A stretch of DNA of 35,267 nt from Ramlibacter sp. (GTDB lineage Bacteria > Pseudomonadota > Gammaproteobacteria > Burkholderiales > Burkholderiaceae_C), in NCBI GenBank assembly GCA_022844525.1, contig JALHLO010000010.1, forward strand, positions 1-35,267. Direction: 5' to 3'. Each line of letters starts with the position of its first letter. Positions within the stretch are counted from its first letter, which is position 1. Position numbers and translations under genes: made by a program. Positions 16,598 through 26,962 of this stretch are shown here, in pieces. The notes below the pieces were generated by a model. It was not told where the DNA came from. It saw nothing but the letters and a program-made list of their open reading frames with translations, and did not search any database.

Positions 16598-17728
16598 ATG
16601 AACCGCCGCAAGTTTCTCGCGCGGGGGGCCGGCGTGGGAGTCGCCGCCGCCGTGTCGTCCGCAGGCCTGGGCGCAGCCGCCGACGCCACGCCCATCGTGG
16701 TGGGGCAGTCCGCCGCCCTGACCGGCCCGCAGGCCGGATTCGGCATCGCCATCCGCGACGGCATTCTCGCCGCGCTGCAGATCGCCAACCGCAACGGCGG
16801 CGTGAACGGCCGCCCCGTGCAGCTTCTTTCCGTCGACGACGTGGGCGAGAAGGCGAAGACGGAGGCCAACGTCGACCTGCTGTCGGCCAACCCCAAGGTG
16901 GTGGGCCTGACCGGATTCACCACCCGCCCCTGCTCCGAAGCGGGCGCGCTGCTGGCGGCGAAGGAAGGCATAGCGCTGGTCGGCGCCTTCTCGGGCACGC
17001 CGCTGCTCTATGGCGACAAGGCGGCGACCACCTTCACCACGCGCGCCAGCTACGAGCGCGAGCTGGACGCCATCGTGCGGCACTACCGCTTCCTGGGCAT
17101 GCAGAAGTTCGGCTTCGTGCACCTGGAGGATGCGAAGTCCACCAACGTGCCGCTGCTGGAGAAGATCCTCGCCACGCACGGCGGCCAGCTGGTGGTGACG
17201 GCGGGCGTGGACCGCAAGGGTCCCGGCCTGAATGCCAACGCCATCCGCACGCTGGAGGCCAGCAGGCCGGACATGCTGATCATCCTGGCCAACAACGCGC
17301 CGCTGACCGGCTTCCTGCGCGAGTACGCGCCGCGCACGCTGGTGCTGCCCAAGATGGTGATCTCCTTCGTCGACCGCGAGAAGCTGCTGGCCGACCTGGG
17401 CAAGGACGCCGCGGGCGTGGGCTTCAGCGTGGTCGTGCCCGAGTACACGCGCGGGAAGTACTGGGTGGTGCGCGAGTTCCTGGCGCAGGCCAGGGAGATG
17501 AAGGTGGCCGTCACGCCGGTGTCGCTGGAGGGCTTCGTCACCGGGCTGGCGCTGGTGGAAGGGCTGCGCAGCGCGCGCAGCGACACCCGCGCGGCACTGG
17601 TCGAAGGCATGGCCCGCGTGGGCAGCCTCGACCTGGGCTACACCAACCTGCGCTTCACCCGCAATGAGCGCTCGGGCTCGCGCTTCGTGGACCTGTCGCT
17701 CGCCTCCCGCAACGCGGGCATCGTCTGA
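16598..17728 (+). CDS. LivK-like ABC transporter substrate-binding protein (orphan)
   Basis: A protein of 376 residues. The N-terminus MNRRKFLARGAGVGVAAAVSSAG is a twin-arginine (Tat) type signal sequence. The mature part matches the branched-chain amino acid type periplasmic binding family (Peripla_BP_6): IVVGQSAALTGPQAGFGIAIRDGI at the start, NRNGGVNGRPVQLLSVDD next, and VVGLTGFTTRPCSEA in the ligand cleft. This family binds amino acids, aromatic acids, amides and other small organics, so the ligand is not predictable. GGGAGGGG is the ribosome binding site. No permease or ATPase gene is adjacent. It shares a unit with a TauD-type oxygenase 15 bases downstream. Confidence 0.88.
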   Translation: MNRRKFLARGAGVGVAAAVSSAGLGAAADATPIVVGQSAALTGPQAGFGIAIRDGILAALQIANRNGGVNGRPVQLLSVDDVGEKAKTEANVDLLSANPKVVGLTGFTTRPCSEAGALLAAKEGIALVGAFSGTPLLYGDKAATTFTTRASYERELDAIVRHYRFLGMQKFGFVHLEDAKSTNVPLLEKILATHGGQLVVTAGVDRKGPGLNANAIRTLEASRPDMLIILANNAPLTGFLREYAPRTLVLPKMVISFVDREKLLADLGKDAAGVGFSVVVPEYTRGKYWVVREFLAQAREMKVAVTPVSLEGFVTGLALVEGLRSARSDTRAALVEGMARVGSLDLGYTNLRFTRNERSGSRFVDLSLASRNAGIV

Positions 17729-17743
17729 TCCAGGGAGGCATCC

Positions 17744-18622
17744 ATGGGCATCCGCCACACCCCCATCACCCCCGCCCTCGGCGCGCTCGTCGAGGGCGTG
17801 GACCTCGCCCGCGTCACGGCGGCGGAGTTCCGCCAGCTGTACGACATCTGGAAGAAGCACCACGTACTGGTGATGCGCGGCCAGGATCTCACCAACGCGC
17901 AGTTCGAGCGCTTCTCGGCGATGCTGGGCGAGCTCGACCCGCCGCCCAACCAGGGCGCGGGCCGCAAGAGCGTGCCCGGCCACCCGAACCTGTACGTGGT
18001 GTCCAACCGCAGGAATGCCGAGGGCGAACCCATAGGAGCGCTCGGGGACGGCGAGGCAGCGTGGCACACGGACATGTCCTACCTGGAGCGGCCGCCCTTC
18101 GCGTCGATGCTGTGGGCGCTGGAGCTGCCCGGCACCGGCGGCGACACCTGGTTCGCCAGCATGCCGGCGGCCCTGCGCTCGATGCCGCGCGACCTGGTCC
18201 AGCGCATCTCCCGCATGGCGATCAAGCACGACGGCACCTACGACAGCGGCGGCAACGTGCGCAAGGGGATGGTCGCCAACGACGATCCCACCCGCTCGGT
18301 GGGCACCATGCACCCCATCGTCATCGTGCAGCCGGAATCGGGCGAGTCCACCCTGTACCTGGGCCGCCGGCGCAACGCGTGGATCGCCGGCCTGCCGCTG
18401 GACGAATCCGAGCGGCTGCTGAACATCATCTGGTGCTATGCGACGGCCGAAGCCGTGACGCTGCGCCACCGCTGGCAGCTGGGCGACGTGGTGCTGTGGA
18501 ACAACTTCACCACCATGCACCGGCGCGACGCCTTCCCCGCCACCGAGTTCCGCACCTTGCATCGCTCGCAGATCAAGGGCCAGTACACGCTGTCCGCACC
18601 CGTCCAGCAGGAGGCCGCATGA
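17744..18622 (+). CDS. TauD/TfdA-family 2-oxoglutarate-dependent dioxygenase
   Basis: A protein of 292 residues, close to TauD in length. The iron facial triad is visible: WHTDMSY gives His108 and Asp110, and NNFTTMHRRDAF gives His259. Arg270 and Arg274 lie 11 and 15 residues after the distal His. This is the spacing of TauD Arg266 (2-oxoglutarate) and Arg270 (sulfonate of taurine) after its His255. The family hydroxylates carbon next to a leaving group, releasing sulfite from sulfonates (TauD), phenol from phenoxyacetates (TfdA) or sulfate from alkyl sulfates. The arginines are also kept in TfdA, so the substrate is open. The sulfite oxidase genes downstream favour a sulfonate. GGGAGG precedes the ATG, and the stop overlaps the next gene. 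Confidence 0.88.
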   Translation: MGIRHTPITPALGALVEGVDLARVTAAEFRQLYDIWKKHHVLVMRGQDLTNAQFERFSAMLGELDPPPNQGAGRKSVPGHPNLYVVSNRRNAEGEPIGALGDGEAAWHTDMSYLERPPFASMLWALELPGTGGDTWFASMPAALRSMPRDLVQRISRMAIKHDGTYDSGGNVRKGMVANDDPTRSVGTMHPIVIVQPESGESTLYLGRRRNAWIAGLPLDESERLLNIIWCYATAEAVTLRHRWQLGDVVLWNNFTTMHRRDAFPATEFRTLHRSQIKGQYTLSAPVQQEAA

Positions 18623-19623
18623 TCAACCGCCGACACTTCACCCGGGGCCTGCTCGCCTCCTCCATCCTGGCCGCGCCCGGCGTGCGCGCGCAGGACCCCT
18701 GGCCGGCCAAGCCGCTGCGGCTGGTGGTCGGACTGGCGCCCGGCGGCATCGCCGACATCACCTCCCGCATCATCGCGCCGCGGCTGTCCGAAGTGCTGGG
18801 GCAGCCCGTGCTGGTGGAGAACCGCACGGGCGCGGGCGGCGCGATCGCCACGCGCATGGTCGCGGGCAGTCTTCCCGACGGCTACACGCTGCTGACGGCC
18901 TTCGACGGCACGCACGTGACCATTCCGGCGTCGAATCCCTCGGCGGGCTTCGACCCCATCGGCGACTTCGCGCCGATCGGCAAGATCGTGGACTCGCCCG
19001 TGCTGATCACGGCGCATCCCAGCTTCCCGGCCAGCGACTTCGCCGAGTTCATCGCGCTGTCCCGCAAGTCGATCACTTCCCGCGACGGCGCGCGCCTGTT
19101 CGACTACGGCACGGCCGGCGTCGGCAGCACCGGGCACCTCACCATGGAACTGCTGAAGCTGCGCCTGGGCTTCTTCGCGGTCCACATCCCCTACCGCGGC
19201 GGCGGCGATGCGCGCGCGCAGGTGCTGGGGCGCCAGATCCCGCTGATGCTGGCGGCCGTGCCGACCACGTCCGGGGACATCCGCGCGGGCGTGCTCAAGG
19301 GCCTCGCCGTCACCAGCGCGAAGCGCGCGCCGGTGCTGCCCAACGTGCCCACGCTGGGCGAGCTGAACCCCGACCTGAAGAACGTGGACGTGAACTCCTG
19401 GGTGGGCCTGGTCGCCCCGGCGAAGACGCCTTCGGCCGTGGTCGCGCGGCTCGATGCCGCCCTGCGGCAGGTGCTCGCGATGGAGGACATCCAGAACCGC
19501 CTGCTGGCCGCCGGCTCCACGCCGGTGAAGAGTTCCCCGGAGATCTTCGGCCAGCAGATCTCGGCGGACCTGACGCAATGGAAGAAGGTGATCGCCGACT
19601 CGCGGCTGCGCCTGGAAGCATAG
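18619..19623 (+). CDS. Bug/TctC-family tripartite tricarboxylate transporter substrate-binding protein (orphan)
   Basis: A protein of 334 residues. The signal sequence MINRRHFTRGLLASSILAAPGVRAQ has a twin arginine and an AQ cleavage site. The mature protein shows standard Bug features: WPAKPLRLVVGLAPGGIADITSR, LGQPVLVENRTGAGGAIATRMVA, HIPYRGGGDARAQVLGRQIPLML and LKGLAVTSAKRAPVLPNVPTLGE. Bug proteins are very numerous in Burkholderiales, bind carboxylates, amides and aromatics, and mostly lack their own membrane partners, as here. The start overlaps the dioxygenase stop (ATGA), so the two are coupled and probably concern the same compound. Confidence 0.92.
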   Translation: MINRRHFTRGLLASSILAAPGVRAQDPWPAKPLRLVVGLAPGGIADITSRIIAPRLSEVLGQPVLVENRTGAGGAIATRMVAGSLPDGYTLLTAFDGTHVTIPASNPSAGFDPIGDFAPIGKIVDSPVLITAHPSFPASDFAEFIALSRKSITSRDGARLFDYGTAGVGSTGHLTMELLKLRLGFFAVHIPYRGGGDARAQVLGRQIPLMLAAVPTTSGDIRAGVLKGLAVTSAKRAPVLPNVPTLGELNPDLKNVDVNSWVGLVAPAKTPSAVVARLDAALRQVLAMEDIQNRLLAAGSTPVKSSPEIFGQQISADLTQWKKVIADSRLRLEA

Positions 19624-19898
19624 TGGCGCCGGGGGCCACGTTGTCCCCCTAGGCCCTTGCGCTGATTTCCCTCCCCCATCCTAAGTGTGCGCCCTAGGCG
19701 CGCCCAGCGGCCGCGCGTGTTCGTCGCTTCATGCTCTCGGAAAAATAGCACCTCCGGCGACCCGCTGAAACCGGCGGTAACTTGTCGCAGCAGCGAGCGA
19801 TTGCTCTCTTGTGGTCCCCGCTGACCTTTGACCACACTGGTTACAGCGCGGCCGTTCAAGGCGCTACGGGTGCCGGGATCGCGCCAGGGAGAACCAGG
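19624..19898 (+). promoter_or_regulatory. Intergenic control region before the PhnD-rhodanese/sorAB unit
   Basis: This 275-base gap holds no gene I can support. Just after the Bug gene, GTGGC and GCCAC (19623-19639 area) could form a weak terminator stem. CCCTAGGC occurs twice, at 19647-19654 and 19692-19699, 45 bases apart. The second copy sits inside the small palindrome GCGCC-CTA-GGCGC (19689-19701). A longer in-frame start at 19782 exists for the downstream gene but would put non-signal sequence before a clear signal peptide. A confident -35/-10 pair was not found. Confidence 0.45.
19773..19789 (+). promoter_or_regulatory. Second copy of the palindrome-like element, upstream of the rhodanese/sorAB unit
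   Basis: GGCGGTAACTTGTCGCA matches the element at 16469-16485 in 14 of 17 positions. The 27-base windows 19766-19792 and 16462-16488 match in 22. It lies 109 bases before the start codon at 19899. The symmetry is weaker than in the first copy. It may bind the same regulator, but this is inferred only from similarity and position. Confidence 0.45.
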
Positions 19899-21116
19899 AT
19901 GAAGGATTCGACTGGACTGGTGGGCGGAATCGCGGCCCTGGCACTCGCGCTGGGGGCGGTGCAGGCGCATGCCGCCGTGCCGCAGGACGCCGGTGCGCCG
20001 CTGCGCGTGCTGGTCAACCCCGGCGACGCGGGGGAACACTCCCGCTTCGGCGTGTACAGCGCCTGGCGCGGCGCGCTGGAACAGGCCCTGCGCAAGCACA
20101 ACATCGGACCGGTGACCTTCGTGCTGTCGGTGGACGCGACGGCCGACCTTTCTTCCACCCGCGCGGGGACCAACGACATCTTCGTCGCGCCGGCGCACGT
20201 GGTGGGCAGCGCCGTGCGCTACGGCTACAAGCCCGTGCTGGGCGTGGACAAGCCCGTGCAGGCGGTGCTGGTGACGCTGAAGAACAGCGGCATCCAGGAC
20301 CTGGCGCAGGCCAAGGGCAAGCGCCTGGGCATGCCGCTGCAGGACAGCGTGGTCACCTACCTGGTGCGCGGCGAGGTCAACGCCGCCAACACCACGATCA
20401 AGCGCCACTTCGCGTCGGTCTACGACACCCGCTACCAGGAAGCCCTGCTGCCCTGCCTGCACCTGCGCCATTGCGAAGTGGTCGCGGTGGAACGCGCGGT
20501 GTACGAGCGCTGGGTGGCCGCCGGCGAACCCGTCCTTGCCATCATGGAAACCCGGCCGGTCCCCAACCTGAGCGTCGCCATCAAGGACGGCACGCGGCCG
20601 GGCACCGAGGCGCTGCAGGCCGCGCTGGCGGATTCGCCGGTGTTCGCGAACCTGCTGCGCACCGAGAAGTCGCTGGCCGTGGCGCACCGCGCGGACGACT
20701 TCAAGTACGTGGCCACCCTCGGCTACTTCACGCCCCGCGCCCTGCCCGGCGCGACCGTCGTGGACGCCAGGCGCGTCGCGCAACTGATGCAGGAAGGCGC
20801 CGCCTACGTGGACACGCGCACCGACGCGGAGTTCAAGGCCGGGCACGTGCCGGGTGCCGTGCTGGTGCCGTACCACGAGAAGAGCGCGAAGGACGCGGAC
20901 TTCGACGCGTCGCTGGACAAGTTCGAGGTCGCCAAGCTGGGCCCGGACCGCGGGGCCACGCTCATCTTCGCCTGCAACGGGCCGGAGTGCTGGAAGAGTT
21001 TCAAGGCGGCGCATGCCGCGATCAAGGCCGGCTACCGGAAGGTGCACTGGTTCCGCGGCGGCTTTCCCGAGTGGCGCAGCTCCGGGCTGAAGTTCGACGC
21101 GGCGGCAGCCCAATGA
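19899..21116 (+). CDS. Periplasmic PhnD-like binding domain fused to a rhodanese domain
   Basis: A protein of 405 residues. It has a signal peptide (1 to about 26, ending AHAAV) and then a PhnD/SsuA-like ligand-binding domain (about 33-275) with LRVLVNPGDAGEHSRFGVYS, NDIFVAPAHVVGSAVRYGYKPVL, and GKRLGMPLQDSVVTYLV. A single rhodanese domain follows (about 284-398) with VDTRTDAEFKAGHVPGAVLVP, the active-site loop CNGPECWKS (Cys359 catalytic, Cys364 second) and WFRGGFPEW. A pair of cysteines, Cys186 and Cys192, lies in the binding domain. The rhodanese should carry persulfide sulfur in the periplasm, and the ligand is unknown. AGGGAG precedes the ATG. The gene is 18 bases before sorA, pointing to a role in periplasmic sulfur or sulfite handling. 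Confidence 0.88.
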   Translation: MKDSTGLVGGIAALALALGAVQAHAAVPQDAGAPLRVLVNPGDAGEHSRFGVYSAWRGALEQALRKHNIGPVTFVLSVDATADLSSTRAGTNDIFVAPAHVVGSAVRYGYKPVLGVDKPVQAVLVTLKNSGIQDLAQAKGKRLGMPLQDSVVTYLVRGEVNAANTTIKRHFASVYDTRYQEALLPCLHLRHCEVVAVERAVYERWVAAGEPVLAIMETRPVPNLSVAIKDGTRPGTEALQAALADSPVFANLLRTEKSLAVAHRADDFKYVATLGYFTPRALPGATVVDARRVAQLMQEGAAYVDTRTDAEFKAGHVPGAVLVPYHEKSAKDADFDASLDKFEVAKLGPDRGATLIFACNGPECWKSFKAAHAAIKAGYRKVHWFRGGFPEWRSSGLKFDAAAAQ

Positions 21117-21134
21117 CAACCTGAGGAAGACGAC

Positions 21135-22343
21135 ATGACGCAATCGACCGATCTCTCCCGCCGCGGCCTGCTGGCCGGCGGCCTCACGGCGCTCGCCGGG
21201 GCCGGCCTCGGCCGCTCCGCCCAGGCCCAGGCGCCCGCGGCAGCGCCGGCGAAGCCCGGGCTGCCGGCGTACGTGGCCTGGAAGGACCCGGACCAGATGA
21301 TCGTGCACACCGGCACGACCATCGAGACGAAGCGCAGCGCCTTCGGCACCAGCGTCATCACGCCGGCCGAGCGGCTGTACATCCGCAACAACCTGCCGGC
21401 ACCCGACGTGTCCATCGTCGCCAACCGCGACGCCTGGACGGTGGCCGTCGAAGGCGTGCGCCAGCCGGTCACGCTGAGCGTCGCCGACCTCAAGTCGATG
21501 GGGCTGGAGACCGTGGCCGCCGTGCTGCAGTGCTCGGGCAACGGCCGCGGCTACTTCCCCAGCAAGCCCAGCGGCACCAAGTGGCAGGTGGGCGCCGCGG
21601 GCTGCGTGATCTGGAGCGGCGTGCCGGTGCGCAGCGTCGTGGCCGCGCTCGGCGGCGTGGTGGAGGACGCGCGCTTCATGACCGGCACCGGCGGCGAGAC
21701 CCTGCCCGCGGGGCTGGACCCGAAGAGCGTGATCGTGGAGCGCTCGGTGCCGCTGCGGGCGATGGACGACGCGCTGCTCGCCTGGGAAATGAACGGCGAG
21801 CCGGTGCCGCATGCGCATGGCGGGCCGCTGCGCCTGGTGGTGCCGGGCTACAGCGGCGTCAACAACATCAAGTACGTCAAGCGGCTGGCATTCACGCCGG
21901 TGGAAACCGACGCGGCGATCCAGCGCACCGGCTACCGCATGACGCCGCCGGGCACGCGCGGCGACCCGAGCTTCCCCGCGGTGTGGGAGATGGACGTGAA
22001 GTCCTGGATCAACGGCCCGGCGCCCGAGGCGGGGCCGGTGCGCGCGGGCATGGTGCAGATCCACGGCGTGGCCATGGGCGGGTCGCGCAACCTGCGCCGC
22101 ATCGACGTGTCCGTCGACGGCGGCCAGAACTGGCAGGAGGCGCGCTTCGTCGGCCCGGATCTGGGCCGCTTCGCCTGGCGCCAGTTCGTGCTGCCGGTGC
22201 GGCTGGCGCCGGGGCAGTACCTGCTGGCTTCGCGGGCGCAGGACTCGCGCTTCAACTGGCAGGTCGAGGCCACGCCGGACAACGGCGGCGGCTTCCTCAA
22301 CAGCGGCTGGCGCGCGCACGCATTTCCGGTCACGGTCGTCTGA
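21135..22343 (+). CDS. sorA: Periplasmic sulfite dehydrogenase, molybdenum subunit (SorA/SorT-like)
   Basis: A protein of 402 residues of the sulfite oxidase family, which oxidises sulfite to sulfate using a molybdopterin cofactor. The N-terminus LSRRGLLAGGLTALAGAGLG is a Tat signal, as expected for a cofactor-loaded periplasmic enzyme. The molybdenum-ligating cysteine is Cys133 in LQCSGNGRGYF. The cofactor domain includes GGETLPAGLDPKSV, WEMNGEPVPHAHGGPLRLVVPGYSG and NNIKYVKRL. A C-terminal dimerisation domain follows, with GSRNLRRIDVSVDGGQNW. It has no heme domain of its own, and the next gene supplies the cytochrome. SoxC is the closest alternative, but no other sox genes are present. The stop overlaps the cytochrome start (TGATG). 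Confidence 0.9.
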   Translation: MTQSTDLSRRGLLAGGLTALAGAGLGRSAQAQAPAAAPAKPGLPAYVAWKDPDQMIVHTGTTIETKRSAFGTSVITPAERLYIRNNLPAPDVSIVANRDAWTVAVEGVRQPVTLSVADLKSMGLETVAAVLQCSGNGRGYFPSKPSGTKWQVGAAGCVIWSGVPVRSVVAALGGVVEDARFMTGTGGETLPAGLDPKSVIVERSVPLRAMDDALLAWEMNGEPVPHAHGGPLRLVVPGYSGVNNIKYVKRLAFTPVETDAAIQRTGYRMTPPGTRGDPSFPAVWEMDVKSWINGPAPEAGPVRAGMVQIHGVAMGGSRNLRRIDVSVDGGQNWQEARFVGPDLGRFAWRQFVLPVRLAPGQYLLASRAQDSRFNWQVEATPDNGGGFLNSGWRAHAFPVTVV

Positions 22344-22654
22344 TGGCGGCGGGTTCCCGCGGCGCGGCGGCCTTCGCCGCGCTCGCCTTCGCCGCCCTGC
22401 CGGCGGCGGCGCAGGCGGACGACGAAGGACGCAGGCTGTTCACCGGCGTGACGCCGGCCTGCGCGCTGTGCCACACGCTCAAGGATGCCGGCGCCGCCGG
22501 CGCCGTCGGCCCGTCGCTGGACGAATTGCGCCCGGACCGCGAGCGGGTCATCAAGGCCCTGCGCAACGGAGTCGGGCAGATGCCGCCGTTCGGCCACCTG
22601 AGCGAAGCGCAGATCCAGGCGCTGGCGCGCTACGTGGAAGCCGCGACGAAATAA
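22343..22654 (+). CDS. sorB: Small periplasmic cytochrome c, SorB-like
   Basis: A protein of 103 residues with a signal peptide (to about Ala25) and one heme c site, CALCH, at 40-44. Met80 in GQMPPF is the likely distal heme ligand. It has the size and layout of SorB, the monoheme cytochrome that accepts electrons from SorA and passes them to the respiratory chain. The start codon overlaps the sorA stop, which supports a heterodimeric SorAB enzyme. It ends 52 bases before the convergent dnaE gene. Confidence 0.88.
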   Translation: MAAGSRGAAAFAALAFAALPAAAQADDEGRRLFTGVTPACALCHTLKDAGAAGAVGPSLDELRPDRERVIKALRNGVGQMPPFGHLSEAQIQALARYVEAATK

Positions 22655-26227: not shown

Positions 26228-26962
26228 GTGAACAATGTCCTCAACATTTCCGCCTACAAGTTCGTGCCCCTGCCGGACGCCGCCGCGCTGCGCGAGCCGC
26301 TGCTCGAACGCGCCAGGGCGCTGGGACTGAAGGGCACGATCCTGCTGGCCGGGGAAGGCATCAACCTGTTCCTGGCGGGCGCGCCGGACTCCGTGCGCGC
26401 CCTGCTGGCGCAGCTGCGCGCCGACCCGCGGCTGGCCGACCTGCAGGCCAAGGAAAGCTGGTCGGATGCGGTGCCCTTCGGGCGCATGCTGGTCAAGCAC
26501 AAACGCGAGATCATCCGGATGGACCATCCGGCGATCCAGCCCGCGGCGGGACGCGCCCCGGCGCTGGCTGCGCACACCTTGAAGCGCTGGCTGGACCAGG
26601 GCCACGACGACGCCGGCCGGCCGGTGGTCACGCTCGACACCCGCAATGCCTTCGAAGTGGACTACGGCACGTTCGACGGCGCGATCGACTGGCGGCTGCG
26701 CAAGTTCAGCGAATTCCCGCAAGCGCTGCGCGCGCACCTGCAGCAGCTGCAGGGCAAGACGGTGGTGAGTTTCTGCACCGGCGGCATCCGCTGCGAGAAG
26801 GCGGCGCTGGTGATGCGGGAGGCCGGCCTGGACCAGGTCTGGCAGCTGGAGGGCGGGATCCTGAAGTACCTGGAGGAAACGGGCGGCGCGCACTTCCATG
26901 GCACCTGCTTCGTGTTCGACGAGCGCGAAGCGCTGGATGGCGCGTTGCAGCCGAAGGCGTGA
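26228..26962 (+). CDS. trhO: tRNA uridine(34) hydroxylase / rhodanese-like protein TrhO (YceA)
   Basis: A protein of 244 residues with a GTG start (first residues [15 protein letters not shown]). It has the N-terminal acylphosphatase-like half of the YceA family ([19 protein letters not shown], and [12 protein letters not shown]) and a rhodanese half with [20 protein letters not shown] and the active loop [13 protein letters not shown] (Cys183 and Cys189). TrhO hydroxylates uridine 34 of tRNAs on the way to 5-carboxymethoxy- or methoxyuridine. This protein ends soon after [12 protein letters not shown] and is about 100 residues shorter than the E. coli enzyme. Short forms like this occur in betaproteobacteria. 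It is divergent from dnaE and converges on a pirin gene through an inverted-repeat element. Confidence 0.88.

Follow-up and report, generated by a model that had tools for sequence, protein, structure and literature searches.

A conserved fusion of a PhnD-type binding domain and a CX4CW rhodanese, encoded beside sorTU in Ramlibacter sp.

Binding proteins of the PF12974 family include PhnD, PtxB, HtxB and ArrX, and the anion-binding residues of PtxB form an STS-H motif for phosphite and phosphonate (Ser124, Thr125, Ser126 and His155; accessible portion of PMC5700983). Single-domain rhodaneses of the PF00581 family, such as GlpE and RDL2, are of the type with Arg, Thr or Ser at the end of the active loop for thiosulfate cleavage; in RDL2 the six-residue loop ends in an Arg that is required to form the persulfide from thiosulfate, a role taken by Thr or Ser in other rhodaneses (PMC8533005, available text). 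TsoB, a rhodanese/DsbD fusion-like selenoprotein, has a UxxxxU motif in which two selenocysteines stand at a spacing equal to that of C-X4-C (available sections of PMC13188914). The TIGR03865 PQQ-associated CXXCW proteins are exported rhodaneses with a Cys pair and a Trp, and PP_2666 is probably one of them. Quinoprotein dehydrogenases of the ped cluster have PedG/XoxJ/MxaJ and the rhodanese PP_2666 as companions; according to the accessible text of PMC12997753, a cytochrome, a partner resembling binding proteins and a rhodanese located in the periplasm surround PQQ dehydrogenases, and enzyme maturation or redox control has been proposed for them. The sulfite dehydrogenase systems SorT/SorU and SorA/SorB are those whose genes adjoin the family described here. 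Expression of sorT in Sinorhizobium meliloti is highest with thiosulfate (PMC6527743), and the part of that paper available to us names no PhnD–rhodanese partner of SorT and has zero occurrences of the word ‘rhodanese’. Both domains of the present protein are of known kinds and their fusion is seemingly undescribed; among the matches listed by literature searches, with most subscription papers outside their coverage, there is no paper on a PhnD-type/rhodanese fusion.

The window, i.e. the whole stretch of 35 267 nucleotides of Ramlibacter sp. that was analysed, encodes one such fusion in full. Conservation is counted over an alignment of 79 rows, which contains the window protein and 78 of 80 relatives; gene calls at the 80 loci are full-length and fused, save two partial calls (L093 and L126) that were left out. 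The features of the gene and its product are as follows.

19899..21116, + strand: fusion of a PhnD-type binding protein and a CX4CW rhodanese, 405 amino acids (ATG at 19899; the stop codon ends at 21116)
19899..19976, + strand: probable signal peptide, about residues 1–26, Sec-type as judged by eye
20073..20630, + strand: Phosphonate-bd domain (PF12974), residues 59–244, from Pfam and profile matches to solved PtxB, PhnD and ArrX structures
20454..20474, + strand: clade-specific cysteine pair of the binding domain, C186 and C192
20700..20753, + strand: conserved linker, residues ∼268–285, with V271, L274, G275, T278, P279 and G284 invariant in the 79 rows
20769..21080, + strand: rhodanese domain (PF00581, Pfam), residues 291–394
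20973..20999, + strand: active loop CNGPECWKS, residues 359–367, with C359 and C364

Both domains score above their Pfam cut-offs in the window protein (Phosphonate-bd, E = 1.5e-11, 44.6 bits against 27; Rhodanese, E = 6.7e-16, 59 bits against 22.2), and both families are matched in all 79 rows at E ≤ 0.001. The fusion is real and exceeds what chance would give, because the two families recur together in every aligned relative and orthologues occur in 12 of the 58 other genomes of the genus. The initial annotation, which had described one polypeptide with a C-X4-C-W loop and had proposed a search for the domain architecture, is borne out on these points, including its numbering (CNGPECWKS starts at C359, and the second cysteine is C364). 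Its assignment of the N-terminal half to a binding-protein fold family agrees at the sequence level with profile matches to solved structures (5jvb, E = 1.6e-11; PtxB, 5o2j, E = 1.8e-07; ArrX, 6x8w, E = 9.7e-07; PhnD, 3p7i, E = 1.1e-04). The protein is predicted to be exported. A scan for promoters and terminators gave no matches, with expected numbers of 0 and 1.8.

Among 99 related genomes, the 12 orthologues of the genus are 62–76% identical over almost their full length, a second fusion with 36–38% identity is present in four genomes including that of the window, and a further genome of the order contains a 40% relative. The genomes of 84 980 species, scanned with the patterns CNG[PA]ECWK and V[YHN]W[FL]RGG[FL]P, by which the conservation of both motifs is partly built in, gave 239 pattern matches; the locus set consists of the best 80 among 227 confirmed relatives. 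Their host names are mostly Burkholderiales (Ramlibacter, Hydrogenophaga, Rubrivivax, Roseateles, Variovorax and others), and five are recorded merely as Proteobacteria. One locus (L105) is from an assembled genome labelled Klebsiella pneumoniae, a label that may be wrong; its fusion groups among betaproteobacterial ones. Of 369 genomes sampled across the class, four match at E ≤ 1e-30 (the window's own genome and three with the rhodanese part only), and in an order-wide sample 41 of 399 match at E ≤ 1e-25, with 21 carrying the whole fusion, 20 the rhodanese half alone and 13 the binding half alone in overlapping groups. The CX4CW motif is kept in all 19 fused loci fetched from the profile survey, the profile having been made from the same family; four of the 19 order-wide loci are on the same contigs as L103, L104, L108 and L111 of the 80. 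Gene calls at the loci used a GC-frame heuristic, which fails in the low-GC locus L193 and in part of L178.

In a 48-row rhodanese tree, 33 sampled fused rhodaneses lie on one side of a branch from 15 others with support of 95/90; L019 was dropped as a long branch, and the support is 88 with it included. Of eight further loci only L132 gave a usable row, and PQQ_CXXCW-like rows are absent from the tree. The PhnD–rhodanese fusion is a conserved family, and a single origin of the fusion is supported.

When aligned against 5o2j, Ser124, Thr125, Ser126 and His155 of PtxB correspond to S150, V151, V152 and Q180, and thus one of the four STS-H residues (S150) is retained; column 180 is His in nine of the 79 rows. 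Unlike the PhnD/PtxB/HtxB and ArrX-type proteins, the window protein is fused to a rhodanese and has no adjacent transporter genes. The loss of the motif weakens the case for a phosphonate receptor. The family has a residue set of its own, different from that of PtxB, with R88, P98, D149 and Y154 invariant and S150, T153 and W205 (78 rows each), R178 (74 rows) and Y179 (72 rows) nearly so; A105, P146 and G158 are also invariant in the binding half. As little of the STS-H motif is left and a different set is invariant, we take the latter to be a probable conserved pocket for another anion.

Upstream and downstream of the fusion, Pfam and NCBIfam identify the following genes.

16598–17728: Peripla_BP_6 receptor (Pfam)
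17744–18622: TauD-type dioxygenase (Pfam)
18619–19623: TctC receptor (Pfam)
21135..22343, + strand: sorT, catalytic subunit of sulfite dehydrogenase (NCBIfam NF052247; Pfam Oxidored_molyb and Mo-co_dimer)
22343..22654, + strand: sorU, c-type cytochrome partner (NCBIfam NF052248; Pfam cytochrome c)
After sorU, opposite strand: dnaE, named from its sequence

The upstream block (16598–19623), with two receptors, a dioxygenase and no transporter genes among them, is kept in two other loci (L040 and L045); the TauD-type product, with a score of 140.5, stays below the cut-off for taurine dioxygenase (313). These genes bear on the possibility that the protein is a conventional receptor of an ABC importer that takes up a compound resembling a phosphonate or sulfonate, the attached rhodanese being unrelated and the position next to sorT a matter of chance. 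The match to PF12974, whose solved members are transporter receptors, and the presence of a TauD-type gene and two other receptors upstream are in its favour. Against it, Pfam finds no ABC permease or ATPase among the six genes from 16598 to 22654, only a quarter of the STS-H residues is kept, two families of sulfite dehydrogenase are linked to the fusion (see below) and both the rhodanese loop and the linker are invariant. We regard an importer receptor as quite improbable.

The rhodanese half has in common with GlpE and RDL2 the Pfam match, D305, R307 and the position of the catalytic Cys, but its loop CNGPEC ends in Cys and not in the Arg, Thr or Ser of thiosulfate-cleaving members. C359, N360, G361, E363, C364, W365, K366 and S367 are present in all 79 rows, 78 of which come from the motif-peptide scan; a loss of Cys359 in most homologues, which had been named as evidence against the initial annotation, is therefore not seen. 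The annotation had also proposed transfer or storage of persulfide sulfur. The rhodanese domain itself stands, and a simple thiosulfate-to-persulfide transferase fits poorly, as Cys364 at the end of the loop weakens the case for a plain thiosulfate:acceptor rhodanese. A dithiol or resolving-cysteine mechanism at C359/C364 would be the favoured alternative, because the loop ends in Cys364 and the TsoB motif has two selenocysteines at the same spacing. Among the NCBIfam models, TsoB fits the rhodanese half best (NF045694, E = 6.2e-16), with 57.6 bits against a cut-off of 805; it differs in having a DsbD-like part and no binding domain.

The window protein has only four cysteines, at positions 186, 192, 359 and 364. 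C186 and C192 occur together in 52 of the 79 rows and never singly. From residue 35 onwards, 52 rows contain just these four cysteines, 21 contain the loop pair only and six contain the loop pair with one or two others. Sixteen unfused or otherwise fused rhodanese stretches have exactly two cysteines each; as the stretches were cut around a C-X3/4-C motif, the pair is a built-in condition and the absence of other cysteines is not. The residues between the two cysteines vary among these stretches (CNAGEC, CGASEC, CNGSPC and CNSGTC), and this variation is likewise not built in. The conserved unit is thus the cysteine pair and not a lone catalytic Cys, since pairs are kept, other cysteines are mostly absent and the intervening residues change. 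The C186/C192 pair may form a structural disulfide or serve as a second relay pair. The window also encodes, at 26228–26962 and thus near this locus, another rhodanese protein, which combines a UPF0176_N with a Rhodanese domain.

The sorT gene begins 18 bases past the stop codon of the fusion and is overlapped by sorU by one base, with all three genes co-directional. The initial annotation had named the downstream pair sorAB; this is ruled out by the NCBIfam scores, as the sorT product reaches 622.2 bits against the SorT equivalog cut-off of 570 and only 181 against the SorA cut-off of 600, and the sorU product reaches 109.6 bits against the SorU equivalog cut-off of 100. The neighbours are therefore sorTU. 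Across the locus set, a sulfite dehydrogenase gene lies within two genes of the fusion in 16 of the 80 loci in addition to the window; 59 loci have none and five cannot be scored at contig ends. The gene is downstream and co-directional in seven of the 16 linked loci and upstream and divergent in nine, and by best BLAST match 12 of the dehydrogenases are of SorT type and four of SorA type. NCBIfam results for five of these 16 neighbours place two above the SorT cut-off (L125, 672.9; L117, 641.5), one just under it (L085, 567.2) and two above the SorA cut-off (L118, 648.3; L130, 651.9); the cytochrome in L118 is SorB (106.7 against a cut-off of 93). Adjacency to a dehydrogenase requires eight changes on the tree of 79 fusions, and the arrangement is thus not one inherited block. 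In the order-wide survey, all 19 loci lacked a sulfite dehydrogenase within three genes.

Among 59 genomes of the genus, eight have both the orthologue and SorT, five the orthologue alone, seven SorT alone and 39 neither (Fisher p = 0.0019, uncorrected for kinship), and the two genes are adjacent in five of the eight. The five genomes without a SorT match, out of 13 with the orthologue, include two that are only 63% and 83% complete, and the orthologue is absent from seven of the 15 genomes with SorT. Where SorT genes occur without the fusion, their neighbours differ. The coupling to sulfite oxidation claimed by the initial annotation is consequently upheld as a frequent link and not as an obligate one. 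SoxB is present in the window's own genome, in 11 of the 13 same-genus genomes with the orthologue and in 29 of the 46 without it, which gives no clear signal of a link to the Sox pathway. In one genome of the genus (G040), a third molybdenum oxidoreductase faces the fusion and scores under all three cut-offs. The molybdate uptake genes modA/modB adjoin the fusion in four loci (L095, L097, L099 and L101; over the cut-off in L095), and a TupA-like gene, under its cut-off, is found in three of these. The glutathione synthase gene gshB lies directly downstream in nine of 99 fused loci (L078, L081, L084, L088, L090, L091, L096, L100 and L121), which belong to two clades; this may be local synteny.

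The best reading, to which we assign a probability of about 0.42, is that the fusion is exported and plays an accessory part in the oxidation of sulfite in the periplasm. The transporter-less PhnD-type domain, assigned by family match, would have a small anion as its ligand, a sulfur oxyanion being the most likely. The rhodanese would act as a dithiol sulfurtransferase: the ligand would donate sulfane sulfur or a sulfonate group to C359, and C364 would resolve the C359 adduct to release sulfite and reduced or sulfane sulfur, leaving a loop disulfide that would need re-reduction. The sulfite would then be passed to SorT for oxidation to sulfate, with electrons going to SorU; these last functions are known for the families, and the coupling to the fusion is the predicted part. 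An accessory role is supported by the co-directional sorTU genes, the linkage in 16 of 80 loci in two arrangements and with two dehydrogenase families, the co-occurrence within the genus, the cysteine pairs and the modA/modB neighbours. It is weakened by the 0 of 19 order-wide loci, the 59 of 80 unlinked loci, the occurrence of SorT without the fusion in seven of 15 genomes and the lack of Arg, Thr or Ser at the end of the loop.

The same neighbours, namely two families of sulfite dehydrogenase and molybdate uptake genes, would also suit a partner protein for the maturation or redox repair of molybdenum sulfite dehydrogenases in the periplasm, by analogy with PedG/XoxJ/MxaJ and PP_2666 beside quinoprotein alcohol dehydrogenases. 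The ped cluster (PMC12997753, accessible text) offers a good parallel, with an exported rhodanese, a binding-protein-like partner and a periplasmic dehydrogenase; the genes are separate there and fused here, and the dehydrogenase acts on alcohol there and on sulfite here. With the PQQ-associated CXXCW model TIGR03865 the rhodanese half gives E = 3.3e-12, but its 46.6 bits fall well under the cut-off of 128.05. SorT is found without the fusion in seven of 15 same-genus genomes and most fused loci have no adjoining sulfite dehydrogenase, both of which speak against a maturation role, and SorT is not known to depend on a chaperone in the periplasm. We judge this explanation unlikely.

Unfused CX4CW rhodaneses have a different setting. 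A chemoreceptor gene adjoins 10 of 12 such rhodaneses (L019, L048, L049, L050, L187, L188, L189, L190, L191 and L196), the 12 being the strongest or first-fetched matches and not a random draw. Seven of the ten contain MCPsignal by Pfam, and those of L019, L049 and L050 were recognized by BLAST to one of these. The gap between the two genes is −4 to 125 bases in nine measured loci, with an overlap of four bases in L048. The following rhodanese and chemoreceptor pairs were delimited.

L048:7566-9607
L187:5982-8109
L188:6155-8344
L189:6274-8422
L190:4516-6613
L191:4279-6512
L196:4341-6507

When the tree is rooted on distant CX4CG rhodaneses, the chemoreceptor-linked rhodaneses are nearest to the fused clade. 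ArrX and AioX act as sensors. The unfused sister rhodaneses weaken the accessory role in sulfite oxidation, as they point to chemosensing, and they suggest that the fusion could be a soluble periplasmic receptor for reactive sulfur or thiol redox, in which the PhnD-type ligand and the dithiol, disulfide or persulfide state of the rhodanese would be read by a membrane chemoreceptor or kinase. Besides the chemoreceptor neighbours and the position of the 33 fused rows on the tree, such a sensor is favoured by the kinship with ArrX seen in the profile match and by the two receiver-domain genes and one CheW-domain gene that follow the fusion in L203–L206, which are of one family. It is disfavoured by the lack of a chemoreceptor match up to three genes away from any of the 99 fusions (BLAST against four MCPs), by the absence of a chemoreceptor or kinase next to the fusion in the window and by the dependence of the root on a distant outgroup. 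Overall, a sensory role appears somewhat unlikely.

Other combinations of the two domains also occur. In L177, L179 and L180 (about 5–7.5 kb), two CX4C rhodaneses lie beside a lone PhnD-type protein, and these side-by-side genes indicate that binding and rhodanese functions are linked also when unfused; a heavy-metal ATPase gene adjoins the lone binding protein, and a weakly SQR-like (sulfide:quinone-reductase-like) gene lies upstream in L179 and L180. The unfused rhodaneses of L194 and L195 have a PF03601 protein as their neighbour, and the one in L194 reaches 88 against the cut-off of 232.6 for TIGR00698 (‘putative sulfate export’). One genome (G813) encodes two 466-residue proteins in which a PBP_like_2 (PstS-like) domain is joined to a CX4CW rhodanese (L192:5848-7248 and L193:6298-7698). 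This is not a widespread parallel, as the two copies are from one genome only and a survey of 300 genomes gave no full coverage of the rhodanese half among the matches listed. At L034:8271-12342 and L032:1801-5064, a CxxCH protein is encoded between pairs of PhnD-type binding proteins; the CxxCH protein of L034 (9108-10226) has no Pfam or NCBIfam match, and a second PhnD–rhodanese fusion follows in that locus.

A broader and rather doubtful proposal is that the CX4CW dithiol rhodaneses constitute a periplasmic sulfur-sensing module, which would be paired with chemoreceptors when alone and would have been fused once to a PhnD-type domain and separately to a PstS-like domain. The resulting receptors would recognize a sulfur oxyanion as ligand and register its sulfane sulfur or redox state through the cysteine pair, and beside sulfite dehydrogenases they would couple the detection of sulfite to its detoxification. 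The cysteine pair and the lost phosphite motif give clear predictions for single-residue tests. The unfused exported two-cysteine rhodanese beside a chemoreceptor is a candidate for the sensing of extracellular reactive sulfur in bacteria, and the fusion is a candidate for the missing steps that lead from sulfur compounds, organic or inorganic, to sulfite oxidation in the periplasm.
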